From IMG/VR virus record IMGVR_UViG_3300046723_000034, positions 1 to 23,548 of that record: DNA of 23,548 nt. One strand, given 5' to 3'. Made by a program: the position numbers and the translations under genes. The stretch is from a virus. Each line of letters begins with the position of its first letter. The first letter of the stretch is position 1. A model generated the notes under the pieces. The model was not told the DNA's origin, searched no databases, and was given only the letters and a program-made list of their open reading frames with translations. Positions 9,645-20,252 of the stretch are shown piece by piece.

Positions 9645-10270
9645 ACCTCAAAGCGGATGTAGGCGGACAAAAGCGAATTGATCGAATTGATCGAATAGCC
9701 GAATTGCTGGGCCGCTCGCGCGCCCGAAACGAGCGGATCGAAGAACATCACACGGCTTTCACGATGTGAAATTGACCGGATGCCGCTCGAGCCGAACGAG
9801 CGCCGCAACGCGCGACCCTCGAGCAGCATGATCTCGCAAACCTGGCGCAATGCCGGCGGCGCATCTTCGGGCAGATTGTAGCCGCCGGTATATGTGACAA
9901 CGATCGGTTCGCTGCGCGTTTCGAACAGCTCGAGCTTGCCGGATTGCTCCTCGAATTCGTAGACGCTCGGATCGAGCGTCGAGCCGCGCGGCGACTCGAC
10001 CGACGCGATGTCCGCCTCGGCCGCCGGCCAATGACTCAAGAACATGCGGCGTGAGCCCAGGCAGCGCCACGTCTCGCGCACCTCCTCGCGGGCAAAGACG
10101 CGATTGCAAAGCGACGAGATGACATCGGAATAGCGCGTGATGTCCTCGGCGAGCTGCGCGTCCTGGCTCGTGTCCGTTGGCGGGATGCCCATTGCGAGCT
10201 TGATCGCGTCGAGCGTGAGCAGATCGTAGGTATCGGCGGGCGTTAGGATTTTGGTGATGATGTCAGCCAT
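9641..10270 (-). CDS. Head-tail connector protein, HK97 gp6-like
   Basis: The 209-residue protein resembles HK97 gp6-type connector proteins. The N-terminal helical part contains LLTLDAIKLAMGIPPTDTSQ and DAQLAEDITRYSDVISSLCN, typical of the family start; a beta portion follows with RRMFLSHWPAAEADIASVE and LELFETRSEPIVVTYTGGYN, and the last helical part has LPEDAPPALRQVCEIMLLEG. Gp6 proteins form a dodecameric ring beneath the portal. The C-terminus (SINSINSLLSAYIRFEV) lies beyond the usual family core. The ATG shares one base with the stop of the collagen-like gene (TGATG). Confidence 0.75.
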   Translation of the reverse strand: MADIITKILTPADTYDLLTLDAIKLAMGIPPTDTSQDAQLAEDITRYSDVISSLCNRVFAREEVRETWRCLGSRRMFLSHWPAAEADIASVESPRGSTLDPSVYEFEEQSGKLELFETRSEPIVVTYTGGYNLPEDAPPALRQVCEIMLLEGRALRRSFGSSGIRSISHRESRVMFFDPLVSGARAAQQFGYSINSINSLLSAYIRFEV

Positions 10271-11280
10271 CAGCCGGCCTCACCGTGGAATTGAGCGAAC
10301 AGCTCGCGCAGCTCGAGCGGCGCGCCGGCGTTGCCGTCGTCCATGAGCGGCGTTGCCGTGTAGGTCTTGCGATCGATGCGCCAGGCCACGATCGCCGGCG
10401 CCGGCGCCGCCATGCCTGGCATGCCGCGCTCGCCGCGCTCGCCCTTGCCGCCGGGGAGTCCCTGCTTGCCGGGCCGCCCGGCCGACGCGATCAATTGCCA
10501 GCCGTCGCCAGGGCACGGCCCCGGATTGTCGGCGCGGGCGATGAAGCCGCAGCCGTTCAATGCAACGACCTCGAGGGCGCGGTAGCTCTCGCCCTCGCGC
10601 CAGGTGCCGCGGACGACCGGGACCGGCGCGTCGCGCCCGGCCGCGGCAACGAGCGCCCAATCCTCATGCGGCGGCGCGGCCGCGGTATCCCGGCGCGCCT
10701 GCCAAGTGCTGCCGGCGGCGGCGACGAGCTCGCCCTCGTAATGGACTGCGCCGGCGGCAAAAATCTTGACCGCGCGCAACGCCCCCGGTGCGCCCTTCTC
10801 GCCGCGCTCGCCGGTCGGGCCGGCCGGGCCGGGCTCGCCCCGCTCGCCTTGGCCTCCTGGCGCGCCACGGTCGCCCGCTGGGCCGCGTTCGCCGGGAGGG
10901 CCTATGTCACCTAGCGGGCCGGGCAAACCGCGCTCACCGGGCGCCCCGCACGCGCCTGGCGGCCCTTCCTTGCCGGGCGCACCGGGCGCACCGGGCTCGC
11001 CGGTCGGGCCGGGCGCCCCATCGGCCCCGCTGCGGAGCTCGGCCAGGCGCGCGGCCGCCATCTCGCGCATATCGGTGCGGGCGATCGCGACCTCGGCGCG
11101 GAGCTCGGCCAGCGTGGCCGCGGTCTGCGCCTGGGCGAGGGCGTGCTCGCGCTGCCACTGGCACCGGGCGTTGTCGAGCACCTCGGCCAGGACTTCGCGC
11201 CACGCCTCAAGCAGACATTCGGCGGCGTCCGATCCGATCGGCGTTGGCAAAGATGTTTCCGACTTCTCGATGTATGTCAT
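10270..11280 (-). CDS. Collagen-like phage protein with two Gly-X-Y blocks
   Basis: The 336-residue protein has a helical, probably coiled-coil N-terminus (residues about 20-84, rich in Ala, Leu, Arg, Glu), then 27 successive Gly-X-Y triplets (residues 85-165, many GPP, GER and GAP). A globular part, about 166-266, holds two modules each ending in a Trp-rich motif ([20 protein letters not shown] and DGWQLIAS); these resemble carbohydrate-binding or ChiC-type beta modules, a guess from the motifs. Eight further Gly-X-Y triplets follow (267-290). Collagen-like phage proteins form trimeric, rod-like fibres or decorations. Its place between portal and connector is unusual, as fibre genes normally lie after the baseplate. 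It overlaps the portal gene by 74 bases, with AGAAGG about nine bases before the ATG. Confidence 0.85.
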
Positions 11281-13024: not shown

Positions 13025-15160
13025 CTACCAAGTAACGCCGGCAACCCAAGCAACGACGCCCGCACGCCTGATGCACCAGTTCGTTGGTAGGATCAGCCGA
13101 AGGGCGAGGCTATCGGTTTGGAACATCGACTTGGCCGGCGCACCGACCACGGCGGGCGCCCCGGACGTGCCGATGTCGGTCGGCGCGGTGTCGTCGAAGA
13201 CCAGCGTAGCCTGGTCGCTGATTTCGAACCTTGGCGCGTCGCCGCCAACCGCCACGAAGTCGGCGGCATCGAGGGCGATCACCGTGCCGAGCGGCACCGT
13301 GCCAGAAGTGATGACCGGCCATCCGCCGAGCCTGCCTTGACTGATTTCGTCGCGGAACGGGAAAACGCCCGCGCCCGGCGCCGCTACAAGCCCGATAGAA
13401 TTTGCTTGCTGCGGATTGAGAAGCCAGACCGGCGCGCGCACATTGCCCTTGGTGCCGGTGAGCAGCGCGCCGGATATTTGCTTGATGTCACCGACCAGGG
13501 CGGTGAAGCCGCCGGCGGCGGTCGGCGTCAAGCCGGCCACGCCGTTGAGGATGCCGGCGGGCCGCACCACGGTCGCCGGGTTGGCATCGAGCAGCACACT
13601 ATCAAGCGAGATAGCGGTGTCGTTTTGGATCGCGTCGCGGAGCAAGCCCTCGACCGCCGGCACGGAATGCTCGGACAATTCCCTGGTCCAAGTGGTGATC
13701 ACGGCCATTTTCTTCGGCGTCAAGGTCTGCGAGCTGAACAGCCCTTGGCGAACCGGGATCGGCAAACCTTCACCAACAAACGAGCCGGCGATCGTCGGCG
13801 TGGTCGCGCGCGTCGGGATCAGGATTTTGCCGTAGGGACCAAACGAAAGCGACAATCCCTTCGCTGCAAGCCGCGGATAGATCGCCGCCGGATAGAGGAC
13901 TTCCATGAACGCAGCGTAGGTGGTCTGCGCCAATTCCGCGGCCCATCCGACCGCGGTAGTGGTGGCCGGCGCGGTCGCGGCGCGCATGATCCACATCACC
14001 GCTTGCCGGTGCTGCTCGTCGTCCCCGTAGATTTCGCGCATCGTCACGTCGATCGGCTGGCGCTTCTGATGCGCGAACAATTGCGCGACGCCGCAATGCA
14101 CGAGCAGATCGAGTCCTTCCGTTTTCTTGCGTGGCATTCCGAACGGCCGCGGCGTGTCGATGCTCGCAGTCTGGTGGGCGGCGATTGGAGTGATGGCCGT
14201 GCTGCCGCGAGCGGTGGTGACGAGCGCGCGCGAGCCGCCATTGTCGGAAGTCTCACCGAGTTGCCGCTCGGCATCGCGCAGGGAAGCGAGCGTGCGTTCC
14301 GCCTGCGTGAGGCTTGCGCTCAACTCGTTGGCGGCGCCCAGGCTGTCATCGCTGACGTTGCTGGCGTCGCCCTGCTTGTCCCAATGGTCGGTCAATTGAT
14401 CTTTCAGTCCGTTGATGCGTTGTTCGACCGCAGTAATACGTTGAGCAAACGACGACATGGTCGTGCCCTTTCTGATGGGAGGTCGTGTCGGCTTGCCCGC
14501 CGGTTGAGCCCCGCGGCGAGCGGCCCGGTCTTTTGCGCCATGCCCGGCGAAGACGAGGTCGATCGTTGCAGGGGAAATTCTAAGGCCCTTGGCGACCGCC
14601 AGGGCGTTTGGATTGGCCGGGACCGAGACCAGGCTGCACTCGACCAGCTCGGCTTTGGTATAAAACACGCCGTAGTCGGACTCCTTGCGCGGCTTGGTTT
14701 CCATCGGCCGGAAGCCGACCGAAACGGCGCGCAGAATGTCGGCAGCGATCAACGCGCGGAGCTCGTCGATGCGCTCGGACGTGCCCTTGGGCGCCAGCTC
14801 GAGCTCGCCGCGCAATTGCTTGTCCACGACGCGGAGCTTGCTCCACTTGCCGATCGGCCATGATGAGTTGTGAGCAAACAAAGCAATCGGGTTTTTCTTG
14901 AAGGCGGCGAGCTCCCAGCCGTCCGCCATGATCACGTCATCCATTCGATCCGGCGTTTCGTCGGAGAGGATGAACTCAAGCGCCCCGACCTTGCCCTCGT
15001 GGGTCTTGTGGCGAATGTCGCCGGCGCCGCGATTTTCCCAAAGTATCTGGCAGGCCTCCTCGTCCCCGATCTCGTCGGTGCACCGCTCCATGAAATCGTC
15101 CTCGCTCTCGTCCTCCTCGGGCTCGAGGTCTTGGCGAGATAGCTTCGCGGCTGCGTCCAT
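13025..15160 (-). CDS. Fused HK97-type prohead protease and major capsid protein (711 aa)
   Basis: One open frame carries two head proteins. Residues about 45-205 form an S78/U35-type prohead protease: a Phe-Ala-His segment (His97 in LFAHNSSWPIGKW), ILRAVSVGFRPMET, and the catalytic ELVECSLVSVPANPNAL (Ser176). A basic linker (about 207-234) leads to MSSFAQRITAVEQRINGLKD at 235, the start of the coiled-coil delta/scaffold region. The HK97-fold capsid domain occupies about 350-711 (KILIPTRATTPTIAGSFVGE, SQTLTPKKMAVITTWTRELS, SLDSVLLDANPATVVRPAGI, SQGRLGGWPVITSGTVPLGT). The protease removes the delta domain after shell assembly. The start has TAGGAGG six bases upstream. A functional internal start for capsid alone is likely. 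Confidence 0.9.
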   Translation of the reverse strand: MDAAAKLSRQDLEPEEDESEDDFMERCTDEIGDEEACQILWENRGAGDIRHKTHEGKVGALEFILSDETPDRMDDVIMADGWELAAFKKNPIALFAHNSSWPIGKWSKLRVVDKQLRGELELAPKGTSERIDELRALIAADILRAVSVGFRPMETKPRKESDYGVFYTKAELVECSLVSVPANPNALAVAKGLRISPATIDLVFAGHGAKDRAARRGAQPAGKPTRPPIRKGTTMSSFAQRITAVEQRINGLKDQLTDHWDKQGDASNVSDDSLGAANELSASLTQAERTLASLRDAERQLGETSDNGGSRALVTTARGSTAITPIAAHQTASIDTPRPFGMPRKKTEGLDLLVHCGVAQLFAHQKRQPIDVTMREIYGDDEQHRQAVMWIMRAATAPATTTAVGWAAELAQTTYAAFMEVLYPAAIYPRLAAKGLSLSFGPYGKILIPTRATTPTIAGSFVGEGLPIPVRQGLFSSQTLTPKKMAVITTWTRELSEHSVPAVEGLLRDAIQNDTAISLDSVLLDANPATVVRPAGILNGVAGLTPTAAGGFTALVGDIKQISGALLTGTKGNVRAPVWLLNPQQANSIGLVAAPGAGVFPFRDEISQGRLGGWPVITSGTVPLGTVIALDAADFVAVGGDAPRFEISDQATLVFDDTAPTDIGTSGAPAVVGAPAKSMFQTDSLALRLILPTNWCIRRAGVVAWVAGVTW
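14456..14472 (-). promoter_or_regulatory. Internal ribosome binding site and start for capsid alone
   Basis: Inside the protease-capsid frame, GAAAGGG (14466-14472) lies seven bases before an in-frame ATG (14456-14458) that begins MSSFAQRITAVEQ. This is exactly where stand-alone HK97 capsid proteins start, ahead of the coiled-coil delta region. Starting here would give a 477-residue capsid protein in excess over the fusion, as capsid must outnumber protease. The motif is seen; its use is inferred. Confidence 0.6.
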
Positions 15161-15254: not shown

Positions 15255-15656
15255 TCAGCGGTGCGGGTTGGGATCGTCGGAGCGATGCCCGGCCGCCATG
15301 GCGCCGGCGCCGGCGCCGGTCTCGACCGCGATGCCGAACTTGCATTCGTCGCGCGACTGCACAACCGGATGGTCGCGCGAGCCGGACCTGATTTTCACGA
15401 AATTGATCGAGCGGCCCCACGCCTCCGAAATCAGGATCGAGGTATTCGGCTTGGCGACAACGGTGACCTCGCCGCCCTTGCTGTCGAACAAGTCGTTGAA
15501 CAGGTTGCCGTCGCTCGAGACCTGAAAGGTCAAATTTGCGGGCGTGAATTCCTGCGGGACGGTGATGCGGACGATGTTGCCCGCGGAGCAGTCTGCGGCA
15601 TCTGAAAGCGACTCGCCGAGCGGAATGGTCGGCCCATCAACAATAGTGATCGACAT
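15255..15656 (-). CDS. Unknown beta-rich protein between endolysin and capsid genes
   Basis: The 133-residue protein begins MSITIVDGPTIPLGESLSDA and has the segments GNIVRITVPQEFTPANLTFQ and SSDGNLFNDLFDSKGGEVTV, then SINFVKIRSGSRDHPVVQSR. The pattern is beta-rich, like small phage decoration or accessory proteins, but I cannot name a family; decoration is only a guess from fold and proximity to the capsid. The last 35 residues are Gly/Ala-rich and ordinary. A GGGGAG ribosome binding site lies eight bases before the ATG. It is the last gene before a strong terminator. Confidence 0.7.
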   Translation of the reverse strand: MSITIVDGPTIPLGESLSDAADCSAGNIVRITVPQEFTPANLTFQVSSDGNLFNDLFDSKGGEVTVVAKPNTSILISEAWGRSINFVKIRSGSRDHPVVQSRDECKFGIAVETGAGAGAMAAGHRSDDPNPHR

Positions 15657-15686: not shown

Positions 15687-16670
15687 TTAGACGATGCCGG
15701 CCGTGATCAGCGCCTCGACATCCGCGAACAGGTCATTGGCCTCGGGCCGGACCTCGACCTCGCGCCGGTTGATTGGTCCCCAATGCTGGCGCAGATGGCG
15801 CAGCGCAACGGCCGCGGCCTCGACCGCGAATTGCGGGCAGCACTTGCAGAGCTTCTGGAATGCGCGGCCCTCGCCGGCACCGTAGTTTTCCCAATCCGTT
15901 TCCGAACACTCGACGCCATCGGCAAAGATGTGCAACGCGCATTGCGCCGGCGGCTCGATGCCGAGCCCGGCAGCGTATTCCGCCATCAGCTTTTCGATCT
16001 CGGTCGAGCAGCTTGAGGAATTGAAACTTTGCTGGAACAGCCCGGCCTCGGCGGTTTCACTTTCGACGTTGGTCGCGCTCTGGTCGCGACCCTCGCAATG
16101 CTGGCCGGACGACTCTCGCATACCGAGGCCGAGCAATAAGACAAAAAGGTGCCGCAGGGTTTTTAGTCCGGCGGTTTCGTTGCTCATCTCGAGGTCGTTG
16201 AATATGTCGGCGTACCATGCGAGCGCGTCCTTGTCCTCGTTGTGCGAATTGGCTTTCGCCATATCGAGCGCGGATGTGTCGAAGGCAAATAGTTTGCGAA
16301 TGCACGTTGCGAACGCGATCGCCATGCCGGCGATATAGGCGGGCGGCGCCTGGCCGCGGTCGGCCCATTCGTAATGCGCAATCGCGGACGAGCGCGCCAG
16401 GCCGACAATGGCGGCCGCGGTCGCCGGGTCGAGCGGCTCGAGCAGCGGCGGCGGGTAGGGCGGCAAGCCGAATTCGGCGTCGAGCGCGTCCCAGGTCTGC
16501 GGCCCGACCACGCCGTCAACGACGAGGTCGCACATGAGTTGATAAACCTCAACCGCGTCGGCGGTGATGTTGCCGAAGTCGCCGTCGAGCGGGCGCACGC
16601 CGAGCAGGCGTTGCACCAGCGTCACCTGGCTCCCTTGCGAGCCGATCGAGATCGTGGGCCGCTCGATCAT
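15687..16670 (-). CDS. Endolysin-like protein: PG-binding domain plus lysozyme-like domain
   Basis: The 327-residue protein has an N-terminal peptidoglycan-binding domain of the PG_binding_1 type (residues about 8-66: GSQGSQVTLVQRLLGV, then DGDFGNITADAVEVYQ and VDGVVGPQTWDAL). The C-terminal domain has LLGLGMRESSGQHCEGRD (Glu186 as likely catalytic acid) and, 20 residues on, EAGLFQQSFNSSS, the arrangement of SLT/lysozyme-like glycosidases. No signal peptide is visible, so release would depend on the holin. The chosen ATG overlaps the holin stop as ATGA; a 53-codon upstream extension lies out of frame over the holin gene. Six cysteines in the C-terminal domain are noticeable. A virion role cannot be excluded. 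Confidence 0.8.
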   Translation of the reverse strand: MIERPTISIGSQGSQVTLVQRLLGVRPLDGDFGNITADAVEVYQLMCDLVVDGVVGPQTWDALDAEFGLPPYPPPLLEPLDPATAAAIVGLARSSAIAHYEWADRGQAPPAYIAGMAIAFATCIRKLFAFDTSALDMAKANSHNEDKDALAWYADIFNDLEMSNETAGLKTLRHLFVLLLGLGMRESSGQHCEGRDQSATNVESETAEAGLFQQSFNSSSCSTEIEKLMAEYAAGLGIEPPAQCALHIFADGVECSETDWENYGAGEGRAFQKLCKCCPQFAVEAAAVALRHLRQHWGPINRREVEVRPEANDLFADVEALITAGIV

Positions 16671-16903
16671 CGGTACATCAGATGCGGTTCCGGCAGGCCG
16701 GGACCGAAGCCGATCAACCCGGAAAGCCAGACTAGAACGGCGATAATGCAGAGCAGACCGACGATGACCTTGCCCCACTTGTAGACGTTCGCGTCGATCG
16801 ACCAACCCATGAAGCCCGTGATCAACCAAACAATGCAGAATGCGATGAAGATGACGATCGCGATGTAAAGCAGGAGGTAAGCAAAGCTGATGAGAATTCC
16901 CAT
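16667..16903 (-). CDS. Two-helix membrane protein, probable holin
   Basis: This 78-residue protein has two hydrophobic segments, about residues 3-32 (LISFAYLLLYIAIVIFIAFC) and 45-67 (KVIVGLLCIIAVLVWLSGLI), joined by a short polar turn, fitting a class II holin. It overlaps the endolysin start by four bases, the usual lysis-cassette layout. A GGGAGG ribosome binding site lies seven bases before the ATG, overlapping the upstream HNH stop region. Holins share little sequence, so this call depends on topology and the adjacent lysin gene; no antiholin or spanin gene is visible nearby. Confidence 0.7.
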   Translation of the reverse strand: MGILISFAYLLLYIAIVIFIAFCIVWLITGFMGWSIDANVYKWGKVIVGLLCIIAVLVWLSGLIGFGPGLPEPHLMYR

Positions 16904-16915
16904 TTGATCGCCTCC

Positions 16916-17242
16916 CTATCGAACCTTGTTTGCCGGATGCTTCGGATCGAGCGGCCAGCCGTCGTCGTCAACGTCGATGCTGTAGCCGTCGAGCTCGATG
17001 AAACGCTTGGACGAGTTGTGGCAGGCTTCGCAGAGCGATTGCAGCTTGCCGATTACAAACTTGTTCCAATCGCCCTTGTGCGGCTCGACGTGATCGACGA
17101 TGCGAGCGACCGTGACGACGCCGCGCGCCAGGCAGAAGGCGCAGAGCGGATGCGCTCGCAGTTGCAACCGGCGCCGCCGCTGCCACGACGCCTTGCCGTA
17201 GAAATGCGACCAGGCGGTGCGGGCCTCGCCTGGTCGCGGCAT
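16916..17242 (-). CDS. HNH endonuclease, packaging type (HK97 gp74-like)
   Basis: The 108-residue protein carries a complete HNH motif: HPLCAFCLARGVVTVARIVD, then HVEPHKGDW and LQSLCEACHNSSKR. Two Cys-x-x-Cys pairs bind zinc, Asp-His (VDHV) is the catalytic pair, and His-Asn closes the motif. Small HNH proteins near terminase genes stimulate cohesive-end cleavage during packaging in HK97-like phages. The gene follows the terminase genes but is separated from them by the PEP-CTERM gene and a small ORF. GAGG lies seven bases before the ATG. It overlaps nothing upstream, three bases after the preceding small ORF stop. Confidence 0.88.
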   Translation of the reverse strand: MPRPGEARTAWSHFYGKASWQRRRRLQLRAHPLCAFCLARGVVTVARIVDHVEPHKGDWNKFVIGKLQSLCEACHNSSKRFIELDGYSIDVDDDGWPLDPKHPANKVR

Positions 17243-17245
17243 GGC

Positions 17246-17386
17246 TCAACCTCGTTCAACCAATTTGCCGCGCAAGGAGCCGGCGACCCGGATGCGCTTC
17301 TTGACGCGGCCTTTGCGGTCGCGAATGATCCGCCAATGAGTGGCCACCGCGTGGCGTTTCTTGGCACTAGGCCGATGCCGCCGCAT
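17246..17386 (-). CDS. Possible 46-residue basic protein
   Basis: An ATG frame of 46 codons ends three bases before the HNH start and overlaps the end of the PEP-CTERM gene by 20 bases. Its product is strongly basic (MRRHRPSAKKRHAVATHWRI, then KGRVKKRIRV). There is no good ribosome binding site, so translation would need coupling. Tight packing and a coherent basic composition favour a real gene, but the absence of a known family leaves doubt. Confidence 0.4.
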   Translation of the reverse strand: MRRHRPSAKKRHAVATHWRIIRDRKGRVKKRIRVAGSLRGKLVERG

Positions 17387-18152
17387 CACCGCTGATGCAT
17401 TGCCGGCGCCGCGAACGCATCAGGCCGACCAGCCCCAGCAAGCCCGCTGCAAAGAACGGCAGCGAAGCCGGCAGCGGCGTGACGACAGCCGCCGGTGCCG
17501 CCTCGATGAAGAACGAGTCCGGGCCATCGTTCAATCCGGTCATCAGCGCCACGAAGCCGATCGTATCTCCCACATGAACGTCGTTGAGATTGAGCAGCGC
17601 CCCGGTGATGGAGTAATCCGGGAAGCCGGTGCCGTTGTTGAGCGACGGCACGTTGCCGGTCGTGCCGCCGGTGAAGCTCGCCAGCACGGTGCGCGTCGTG
17701 AAGTCGAGGAAGAAAAACGAGTTGAGCGTCTGCGCCTGATTGGTGTCGTTCACGTCCACGCCGATCGAGAAGCCCAGGCTCGTGTCGTTGTTGGCGAGCA
17801 GGAACAGCAGGAACGGACTTCCGGCGCCGACGGTGTAGCCGGTCGCGAAGGTGTTGTCGGCCAGCGTGTTGCGGCCGCCATTGCCCTCATCGGAGAACGC
17901 GGTGATCGATGACGTGGCTCCGTTGTTGCTGTAATCGTTGTAGCCGAAGTTTGCCGGCTGTTGCGGCTGGGTCGCGCCGCAAATCACGCACGGCGCGTTC
18001 TGCGGTTGGTTGCCGGCCGGCACCACGTTTCCAAGGCTTAGGCTACCGGAGTTGGTGGTGTCCCAGGTCACGCCGCCCAGCGTGACGGTGCTGGCGGATG
18101 CGGGCAGCGCGAGCGCCGCCAGGATGAAAGCCGTAAGCGCAAGTCTTTTCAT
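17367..18152 (-). CDS. PEP-CTERM-like secreted protein, cargo gene inside the phage operon
   Basis: The 261-residue protein has a signal peptide (KRLALTAFILAALALPASAS, cleaved near residue 21), a Gly/Asn/Thr/Asp-rich extracellular domain of about 200 residues, and a C-terminal sorting signal TPLPASLPFFAAGLLGLVGL followed by MRSRRR (about 225-250), which matches the PEP-CTERM pattern of a short Pro motif, a hydrophobic helix and an Arg cluster. In bacteria such proteins are exported and processed by an exosortase; none is encoded here, so host machinery would be needed. Eleven extra residues follow the Arg cluster, which is slightly long. AGAGG lies five bases before the chosen ATG; an ATG five codons earlier has no ribosome binding site. 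It begins 25 bases after the terminase stop. Confidence 0.8.
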   Translation of the reverse strand: MKRLALTAFILAALALPASASTVTLGGVTWDTTNSGSLSLGNVVPAGNQPQNAPCVICGATQPQQPANFGYNDYSNNGATSSITAFSDEGNGGRNTLADNTFATGYTVGAGSPFLLFLLANNDTSLGFSIGVDVNDTNQAQTLNSFFFLDFTTRTVLASFTGGTTGNVPSLNNGTGFPDYSITGALLNLNDVHVGDTIGFVALMTGLNDGPDSFFIEAAPAAVVTPLPASLPFFAAGLLGLVGLMRSRRRQCISGDAAASA

Positions 18153-18177
18153 AGTTGCCTCTTTCATGTTGGGTAGT

Positions 18178-19749
18178 TCAAGCGATCAGCGTTTCAAGAT
18201 CGATCGGTTTAGCAACGCGGTCACGCGAGCGCAGACCGAGCAGCATCGCGAGCGCGACAGCGCCGTCAATGCGGAAGCGCGCCTTGTCTTTGTCGAGCTT
18301 ACGATTGCCAGCCGGGTCCATAGTCGCAACCGCATTGGCCATGTTCCAGTTGAGCACGGGATTGCTTGGATGGACGAGTCGCCGCTCCATGATGGCGAGC
18401 TCGAGCGCGTCGATCGCCGGCGCCATGTCCTTGAAGCCCTGGCCCCAGGGGACGAGCCGTAAGCCGTCGCCGCCCTTCTCGCCGTCTTCGTAAGCCTGCA
18501 AGCCGATGCGATCAAACTCCCGGAGGATGTCGCCCATGCGCCAGCGATCATAGGCCATGCCCTTGACGCGGTAGCGTTGCGTGAGCTCGCCGATGAAGCG
18601 CGCGATCGTCTCGGGATCGATGGTCTTGCCGGGCGAGAGCCGCAGATGCCCGGCCTCGACCCATTCCCGATAGCGGTGCGTTCCGCTACCGAAGTCGCGA
18701 TTGGCGTGCTCGGTCAGATGGTCGGCCGGCTTCCAGAAATACGGCACCACCCGCGTCGGGTCGGAGATCGAGCCGACCATCAACGCGGTCAGATCGATGA
18801 CGCTCGACAAATCGAGCGCGAGGTAGACCTCCTCGCCGTCCGCGATCCTGGCATCGCCGGCGCACGCCATCCACTCGGCGCGCGAGATCAGCGAGGATAT
18901 CGGTGCCACCCGCTGATTGAGAAATAGGTTGCGGACCTTGGGTTCGCCCGCCGGCATGCGCTTGGCCTGGCGCACCGCGGCGACGAGGTCTTCGCGATCG
19001 CGGAACTTGCCGAGCGCCGGATTGGCTTTCGCCCATTGCGCCTCGTCATCGAGCTCGCAGCCCTCGGCGGCGGCGTGCAAGTGGCAAACGATCGACGGAT
19101 CGGTGCCCGCCAGCCCGTCGTCGATCAGCTTTGAGAGCACATGCTCGGGATCATTCGACTGCGTCGAGATGGTGATGAACAGTGGCTCATCGCGCGCCCC
19201 GAAGCTGGTATCGAGAACATCATACAAGGCCCGGCTCTTGGCCTGCGCGAGCTCATCGTAGATCACGACGCTGGGCAAATATCCGTGCTTGGTGCCGGCC
19301 TCCGCGCTCACCGCACGGTAGATCGAGCCGGTGCGCCGCGAAAACATGGTCTTGGTCGAGGTAATGACTTCGATCTCGGCCGCGAGCTGCGGTTCGAGCT
19401 CGACGATCTGCTTGGCGAACTTGAACACGATCGAAGCCTGATCGCGGTCATTGGCGGCCGAATAGATTTCCCCGTTGACGACCCTTTCCGGCCCGACCAG
19501 ATGCGCGAGCGCCATCGTCGCGATCAACGCCGTCTTGCCGTTCTTTCGCGCCATCGAGAGGATCGCACGCCGCACAACACGGCGGCCGCCGATGTGCGGC
19601 TCGTAAATATCCTTGAGAAAAGCCCGCTGGAACGGATGCAGCTTGAACGGCTTGCCCTGGCCGGTCCCGCTCGGGATGGTCAGGCATTCGATGAAGTCGA
19701 TCACATCCTGGGCGCGGCGCTTGCCGTCCGCGGTGCGCTGGACGGGCAT
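18178..19749 (-). CDS. terL: Terminase large subunit, HK97/P27-associated type
   Basis: The 523-residue protein is a packaging ATPase-nuclease. The ATPase domain has Walker A at 66-73 (MARKNGKT), Walker B VVIYDE at 161-166 and the coupling motif ISTQSN at 194-199. The nuclease domain begins with VYLALDLSSVIDL (Asp313), then MAYDRWR (Asp401), and RIDGAVALAML (Asp495) near the end; these acidic residues should coordinate metal ions. The N-terminal KLHPFQRAFLKDIY segment is typical of the family. The ATG shares one base with the terS stop (TGATG), so the two subunits are translationally coupled. Together they pump and cut DNA at the portal. Confidence 0.95.
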   Translation of the reverse strand: MPVQRTADGKRRAQDVIDFIECLTIPSGTGQGKPFKLHPFQRAFLKDIYEPHIGGRRVVRRAILSMARKNGKTALIATMALAHLVGPERVVNGEIYSAANDRDQASIVFKFAKQIVELEPQLAAEIEVITSTKTMFSRRTGSIYRAVSAEAGTKHGYLPSVVIYDELAQAKSRALYDVLDTSFGARDEPLFITISTQSNDPEHVLSKLIDDGLAGTDPSIVCHLHAAAEGCELDDEAQWAKANPALGKFRDREDLVAAVRQAKRMPAGEPKVRNLFLNQRVAPISSLISRAEWMACAGDARIADGEEVYLALDLSSVIDLTALMVGSISDPTRVVPYFWKPADHLTEHANRDFGSGTHRYREWVEAGHLRLSPGKTIDPETIARFIGELTQRYRVKGMAYDRWRMGDILREFDRIGLQAYEDGEKGGDGLRLVPWGQGFKDMAPAIDALELAIMERRLVHPSNPVLNWNMANAVATMDPAGNRKLDKDKARFRIDGAVALAMLLGLRSRDRVAKPIDLETLIA

Positions 19750-20204
19750 CAGCCGGACAGAAAGCGGTCGAACTTGCCCGGCCGGCGACCGGCGCCGCTC
19801 GAGCCGGCATTGATCCGCGTCCGCGCCGCCGGACTAAACCCGAATTCGTTAGCCAGCCGGATCATGTCGGCCGCGGCCTTGCTCGCGATCGAGATGTGCG
19901 CGTTGCGGGTCAGGCGAGGGTTGTCGCGCAATGCCATCGCAGCGCCGTGCCAAACCCCATAGGAAAGGCAGTAAGCCGCCAGCAAAGCCAGATCGACCTT
20001 GCTGAATATGCCCATGACGATGAGCTGTCCGGCCGCCACCCGCCACTCATCCGCGGCCACGCCCGACAGACACGCAGGCGGCTCGGGCACCTCGACAATC
20101 CCTTCCGGCTGCGGCTCGTTGAGATTGAGCCGGTCCAACGCCATGCCGGGATTGCCGCGCAATAGCTTGAGCCGCAGCGATTGCGGCTTCGGTCCCGATC
20201 TCAT
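19749..20204 (-). CDS. terS: Terminase small subunit, P27 family
   Basis: The 151-residue protein matches P27-type small terminases: RSGPKPQSLRLKLLRGNPGM at the N-terminus, VEVPEPPACLSGVAADEWR, LLAAYCLSYGVWHGAAMAL and the C-terminal ANEFGFSPAARTRI, the family hallmark. It recognises phage DNA and regulates the large subunit. The start is chosen at ATG with GGAG eight bases upstream; an upstream TTG would add 13 residues but has no better signal. A 124-base gap with two palindromes lies upstream. Confidence 0.92.
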   Translation of the reverse strand: MRSGPKPQSLRLKLLRGNPGMALDRLNLNEPQPEGIVEVPEPPACLSGVAADEWRVAAGQLIVMGIFSKVDLALLAAYCLSYGVWHGAAMALRDNPRLTRNAHISIASKAAADMIRLANEFGFSPAARTRINAGSSGAGRRPGKFDRFLSG

Positions 20205-20252
20205 TGTTTCGGCTCCAATTTTTTTCGGATGTGCAAGTTCCAAAAGTGAGCT

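Follow-up and report, generated by a model that had tools for sequence, protein, structure and literature searches.

The exported protein and its neighbours

The window, by which we mean the whole stretch of 23,548 bases analysed here, is an IMG/VR virus record, and the window features located in this section lie on its minus strand. At positions 17367-18152 it carries an ORF of 261 aa for a PEP-CTERM-like exported protein of a phage-specific family. The upstream neighbour is the terminase large subunit gene terL (18178-19749; PF03354, PF20441, phrog_9), which is preceded by the small subunit gene (19749-20243; PF05119, phrog_83) and ends at 18178, 25 bases before the gene. Downstream lies an HNH endonuclease gene (16916-17242; PF01844, phrog_2323), followed by an ORF for a hydrophobic protein of 78 aa with two TM segments, a putative holin without PHROG match (16667-16903), and by a gene for a peptidoglycan-binding protein with an endolysin-like N-terminus (15687-16676; PF01471, phrog_33367, phrog_1493). 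The original prediction had placed the gene between terminase and lysis genes; the upstream border stands, but the downstream border is the HNH gene, with the possible lysis genes after it. The other genes of the window include a prohead protease-capsid fusion, a portal and a contractile tail. It may be noted that the prohead protease and major capsid protein form a single ORF of 711 aa (13025-15160; phrog_617, TIGR01543 and TIGR01554), that the gene of a collagen-like protein with Gly-X-Y repeats (10270-11280) is flanked by those for the portal and the head-tail connector, and that a NusG-family protein (PF02357; 21400-21999) is possibly an RfaH-like antiterminator.

Translation starts at an ATG (18150-18152), five nucleotides after a Shine-Dalgarno-like AGAGG (18158-18162). 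Residues 1-20 (18093-18152) form a signal peptide, as PEP-CTERM substrates carry at their N-terminus, with an MKR n-region, a hydrophobic core and an A18-S-A20 cleavage site whose two alanines are invariant or nearly so across the family. It is followed by a beta-rich ectodomain (residues 21-218; 17499-18092; alignment A3, model pLDDT 80.7) with the motifs NGTGFPDY and NDGPDSFF and a CxxC at residues 55-58 (17979-17990), which is invariant in 31 representatives; both cysteines are lost together in L077. The C-terminal sorting tail (residues 225-250; 17403-17480) consists of TPLPAS (225-230), a TM segment (231-245) and the basic cluster RSRRR (246-250), so that the arrangement of motif, TM helix and basic residues is that of PEP-CTERM proteins with PLPA in place of PEP. 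The AlphaFold model is in agreement, with helices at residues 3-13 and 231-254 flanking an all-beta domain. Thus the exported protein with its signal peptide and PLPA-TM-RRR tail, 25 bases after terL on the same strand, was correctly predicted. Neither of two AlphaFold models (pLDDT about 81) had a Foldseek match at E <= 1e-3, a PDB sequence search gave none, and PHROG matches were weak and to families without assigned role. Weak Foldseek matches to carbohydrate-binding modules and ConA-like lectins recurred; we did not use them to assign a fold to the ectodomain.

The tail of the window protein scores below every curated PEP-CTERM cut-off: it reached 8.8 bits against 20.7 for PF07589, the protein scored 11 against 125 for XDP1, and it was not listed by TIGR02595 or TIGR03370 at E 10. 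This is the outcome which the original prediction had itself named as speaking against a PEP-CTERM tail, but relatives carrying the same ectodomain pass curated cut-offs, as described below, and it is through their scores, not through that of the window protein, that the sorting tail of the family is recognised. A pattern scan for such tails over all ORFs of at least 100 codons in the loci (11,338 ORFs) flagged the window family and a few other tailed proteins, with only three obvious false positives (one each in L059, L112 and L150), which argues that the tail architecture is not due to chance.

A simple sigma-70/terminator consensus scan of 16600-18700, which other promoter types would escape, found neither a promoter nor a terminator for the gene on its strand; the transcription signals of its own which moron-like cargo often has were thus not seen, and the gene is probably co-transcribed with terL. 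A contig of 49.7 kb, identical to the window at 11,261 of 11,267 bases, contains a tyrosine recombinase frame (25.9 bits against a cut-off of 27.1), which suggests that the phage is probably temperate; integrase matches were obtained in this contig and in 12 further records. The late-region position without a promoter-like site is by itself no argument for expression in the lysogen, and a role in the lytic phase fits the late-operon position better than a role in the lysogen only.

A cargo slot after terL

The exact gene was found in the same context in contigs from other samples (L001, L002, L003 and L005), and a diverged version occupies the same site in L029/L229. Together with the 49.7-kb twin contig, these recurrences of one junction leave an assembly join, named in the original prediction as a refuting outcome, or host contamination with hardly any probability; nothing was found that speaks for either. 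In L004 the gene and TerL are 100% identical to those of the window and the peptidoglycan-binding protein is only 74% identical, as in L029; this mosaic reflects a recent recombination just downstream of the gene.

We compared 80 TerL relatives and classified the slot between terL and the HNH gene in those which were at least 95% identical and had enough sequence. Four TerL relatives (L244, L248, L254 and L264) bear IMG/VR ids of the 26-28xxxxxxxx type, which we take to mark isolate genomes. The gene was present in eight, the slot was empty in one and another tailed protein was found in one. In the empty slot (L231, TerL 95% identical) the HNH gene starts 7 bases after terL. In L230 (TerL 96% identical) an unrelated ectodomain sits on nearly the same tail DNA: compared with L229, terL DNA is 91.7% identical and the ectodomains are unrelated, and the tail DNA is identical at 90 of 96 bases, including a long identical run, as are all 404 of 404 bases downstream of it. 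This L230 ectodomain resembles the FxDxF family of PEP-CTERM proteins (NF038126; E 1.1e-6) and is 47% identical to a second tailed protein of L167, which has a VPGP tail. A third ectodomain, again with a VPGP tail, fills the same slot in L292 (TerL 73% identical). Other small genes occupy it in L235, L236, L240, L241 and L243, including some for proteins of about 112 aa that resemble the family encoded at window positions 15255-15656. Presence, absence and replacement at one site between close relatives support the reading, from comparison of sequences, that the gene is cargo and not a core phage gene, as originally predicted. Since the ectodomain was replaced on a retained tail, selection appears to keep a tailed, exported protein in the slot while its outer part is exchanged.

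Some 190 IMG/VR contigs, spread over many phage backbones that are not related to one another, encode the ectodomain. Many of these contigs belong to samples with adjacent IMG numbers, and their independence is therefore uncertain. The viral scans gave 182-194 confirmed relatives per query, of which the best 80 per query were kept and grouped into 31 clusters at 85% identity. On the other hand, a search of 84,980 prokaryotic genomes with short conserved patterns, which distant homologues may escape, found no relative of the ectodomain (36 and 86 pattern-matching stretches in the scans, 0 relatives among them), and neither did tblastn against 50,697 GenBank phage and 72,556 PLSDB plasmid records. 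Within the family the blocks GNQP, CxxCG, NGTG.PD and DG..SFF are invariant, and the median dN/dS of the ectodomain is 0.30 with none of 3,362 pairs above 1, which indicates purifying selection. The gene follows terL in the lineage of the window; elsewhere, by our reading of the flanking ORFs, it appears to follow portal-like genes (L013, L054), a RecT-like region (L041) or an integrase (L077). One TerL family (phrog_9) is matched by 17 of 49 records, and others match only a different terminase domain. The protein of L041 is 78% shared with that of the window and no TerL was detectable in the L041 stretch examined, while in L125 TerL is 40% and the protein 51% identical to the window; such mismatches show that the gene moves between phages, and its occurrence at other sites in unrelated phages likewise speaks for cargo.

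Sorting tails and their exchange

Visual inspection and model searches divide the tails within this one ectodomain family into the classes TPLPA, VPEPGS (PEP-CTERM), VPGPIVGAGLPGL, PEPxxWA and VPLPAAVW (VPLPA). Relatives with three of these tails exceed curated cut-offs: L058 (22.5) and L054 (20.0) for TIGR02595 (cut-off 16), L156 (28.1) and L169 (26.5) for the VPLPA-CTERM model TIGR03370 (cut-off 25.35), and L154 (38.9) for the PEPxxWA-CTERM model NF035944 (cut-off 35). What differs from the known VPLPA-CTERM and PEPxxWA-CTERM proteins is that here both tails occur on one phage ectodomain family. Among the T-class members tested none passed a sorting-model cut-off, the nearest being L051 (23.7 against 25.35 bits), and the member tested of the commonest class, VPGP (L128), matched no sorting model. 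However, the VPGP tail is also borne by the second tailed protein of L167, whose ectodomain matches the FxDxF PEP-CTERM family (E 2.6e-9), which suggests that it is a signal equivalent to the recognised sorting tails. The FxDxF matches of L230 and L167 extend over the ectodomain and are below the cut-off of 50 bits, and the window protein itself is not a match. A tblastn search of plasmids and phages with tail sequence only gave no match, probably an effect of the low-complexity filter.

Mapped on a tree of 100 ectodomains, the tail labels require 12 changes of class, a count that could be slightly lower as the class of L158 and L190 (VPLPAVG tails) is uncertain. In some pairs the ectodomain DNA is at least 85% alike and the tail DNA less than 65%. 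In L154, VPGPTVGA stands directly before VPEPATWAMM, which looks like the trace of a tail replacement, the old tail followed by the new one.

Seven phage lineages encode a companion, another tailed protein close to the family member. The ectodomains of the two are unrelated, and their tails are of one class in 7 of 7: VPEP in L058 and L067, VPGP in L086/087, L142, L150 and L167, and VPLPAAVW in L156. With labels dealt at random, the chance of such a complete match is 48/5040 (hand calculation). A further companion in L192 has a VPGP motif in an incomplete tail. Single-protein viral scans with the companions gave few relatives. The L058 companion resembles PepA, a flocculation protein (E 7e-11; 42.3 bits against a cut-off of 80), and has relatives among PEP-CTERM proteins on Acidiphilium plasmids.

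Proposed display at the host surface

We propose, with a probability of about 0.6, that the gene is cargo for a surface protein displayed by the host. It would be transcribed with terL and its product exported by Sec; the C-terminal helix would then hold the protein temporarily in the inner membrane until the host's own exosortase reads the tail and processes it, and the processed protein would be released to the cell surface or the exopolysaccharide matrix. Export, anchoring, exosortase recognition and release follow the PEP-CTERM route as proposed for bacterial proteins in PMC1569441. A search of 49 phage records for exosortase genes found none, so that sorting would rely on the host; display through a host exosortase is well supported by comparison, and we consider it to be likely. 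Ectodomain and tail are separate modules: an ectodomain may be retained while its tail is altered, presumably to fit the sorting enzyme of the host, or conversely a tail may be retained with a new ectodomain. As for purpose, we suggest only tentatively that the surface of the infected or lysogenic cell is coated or altered to block receptors or adsorption, whether of other phages or of the phage's own progeny. The superinfection block, decoy and lysogenic conversion suggested in the original prediction are candidate roles only.

A close alternative, somewhat doubtful in our judgement, is that the protein, exported and sorted in the same way, is a conversion factor which changes biofilm or floc structure to the benefit of the host cell or of phage spread. 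The PepA-like companion of L058, with its similar proteins on Acidiphilium plasmids, is what brings this purpose near to the preferred one; some gene copies lie near integrases (L076, L077, L085), and Haft et al. 2006 (PMC1569441) tie PEP-CTERM to exopolysaccharide in bacteria of soil and sediment. Yet the window copy belongs to the late region, where the consensus scan detected no promoter-like site for it, and the main ectodomain family had no bacterial homologue in the genomes scanned. Were the product instead a plain type I protein of the inner membrane, its tail a mere anchor and the tail variety drift, the low sorting-model scores of the window and VPGP tails would be accounted for; but drift would predict neither the convergence of tails on three curated sorting classes, nor their agreement in class with a companion, nor their modular exchange with breakpoints at the border of the tail, and we regard this reading as unlikely.

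We hold it improbable that the protein is a decoy, an abundant substrate saturating the host exosortase and stripping the host of its surface proteins. Tail matching and varied ectodomains on one tail would be explained, but a decoy would not need an ectodomain, and this one is under apparent purifying selection with invariant motifs. Still less probable is a virion component: in the window the gene lies beside genes for packaging and the head, but the product has a signal peptide and an anchor, and close relatives that share the head genes lack the gene, which takes other genome positions in other phages.

Surface-modifying cargo of other phages, such as lambda Bor and Lom, T5 Llp and P22 SieA, resembles the window gene in that it encodes envelope proteins which belong neither to the replication nor to the structural core. 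Those proteins differ in being lipoproteins or in inserting into the outer or inner membrane, and we know of no exosortase tail on cargo of that kind. With the substrates of the PEP-CTERM/exosortase (EpsH) system (Haft et al. 2006; TIGR02595, PF07589) the protein shares the signal peptide, short C-terminal motif, TM helix and basic cluster, an ectodomain without known homologues, and phage-family relatives above curated cut-offs. Unlike them, its family is phage-encoded and absent from the bacterial genomes scanned, the tail of the window protein is below cut-off, and tails vary within one ectodomain family.

More broadly, we lean slightly towards the view that exosortase-client surface proteins form a large set in phages of soil and freshwater bacteria. 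Both of their modules would be freely exchanged, the ectodomain acting as effector and the short tail as host address, and a new tail would allow one effector to be displayed in a host with another exosortase. In the part of the open-access PMC literature covered by our search, neither a connection of phages with PEP-CTERM nor a phage system of this kind was found. If the proposal is true, phages exploit a bacterial protein-sorting system so far unlinked to them in that literature, tail type could predict the hosts of uncultured phages, and the family provides a set of natural tail swaps with which the tail specificity of individual exosortases, still unsettled in that field, could be tested.

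Tailed proteins were also noticed outside this family. PEP-CTERM proteins lie near toxin-antitoxin genes on mobilizable Acidiphilium plasmids (L197, 2615-3280; L198, 2755-3441 and 3957-4559) and show, in parallel, proteins of this type as cargo of another mobile element; no VPGP tail was found on two Acidiphilium plasmids. Two further IMG/VR contigs encode unrelated tailed proteins, one with the C-terminus VPIPAAVWMFGSALFGLIVIARRKK (L222, 9434-10102) and the other a THxN family PEP-CTERM protein scoring 108.8 against a cut-off of 85 (L223, 9392-10126).
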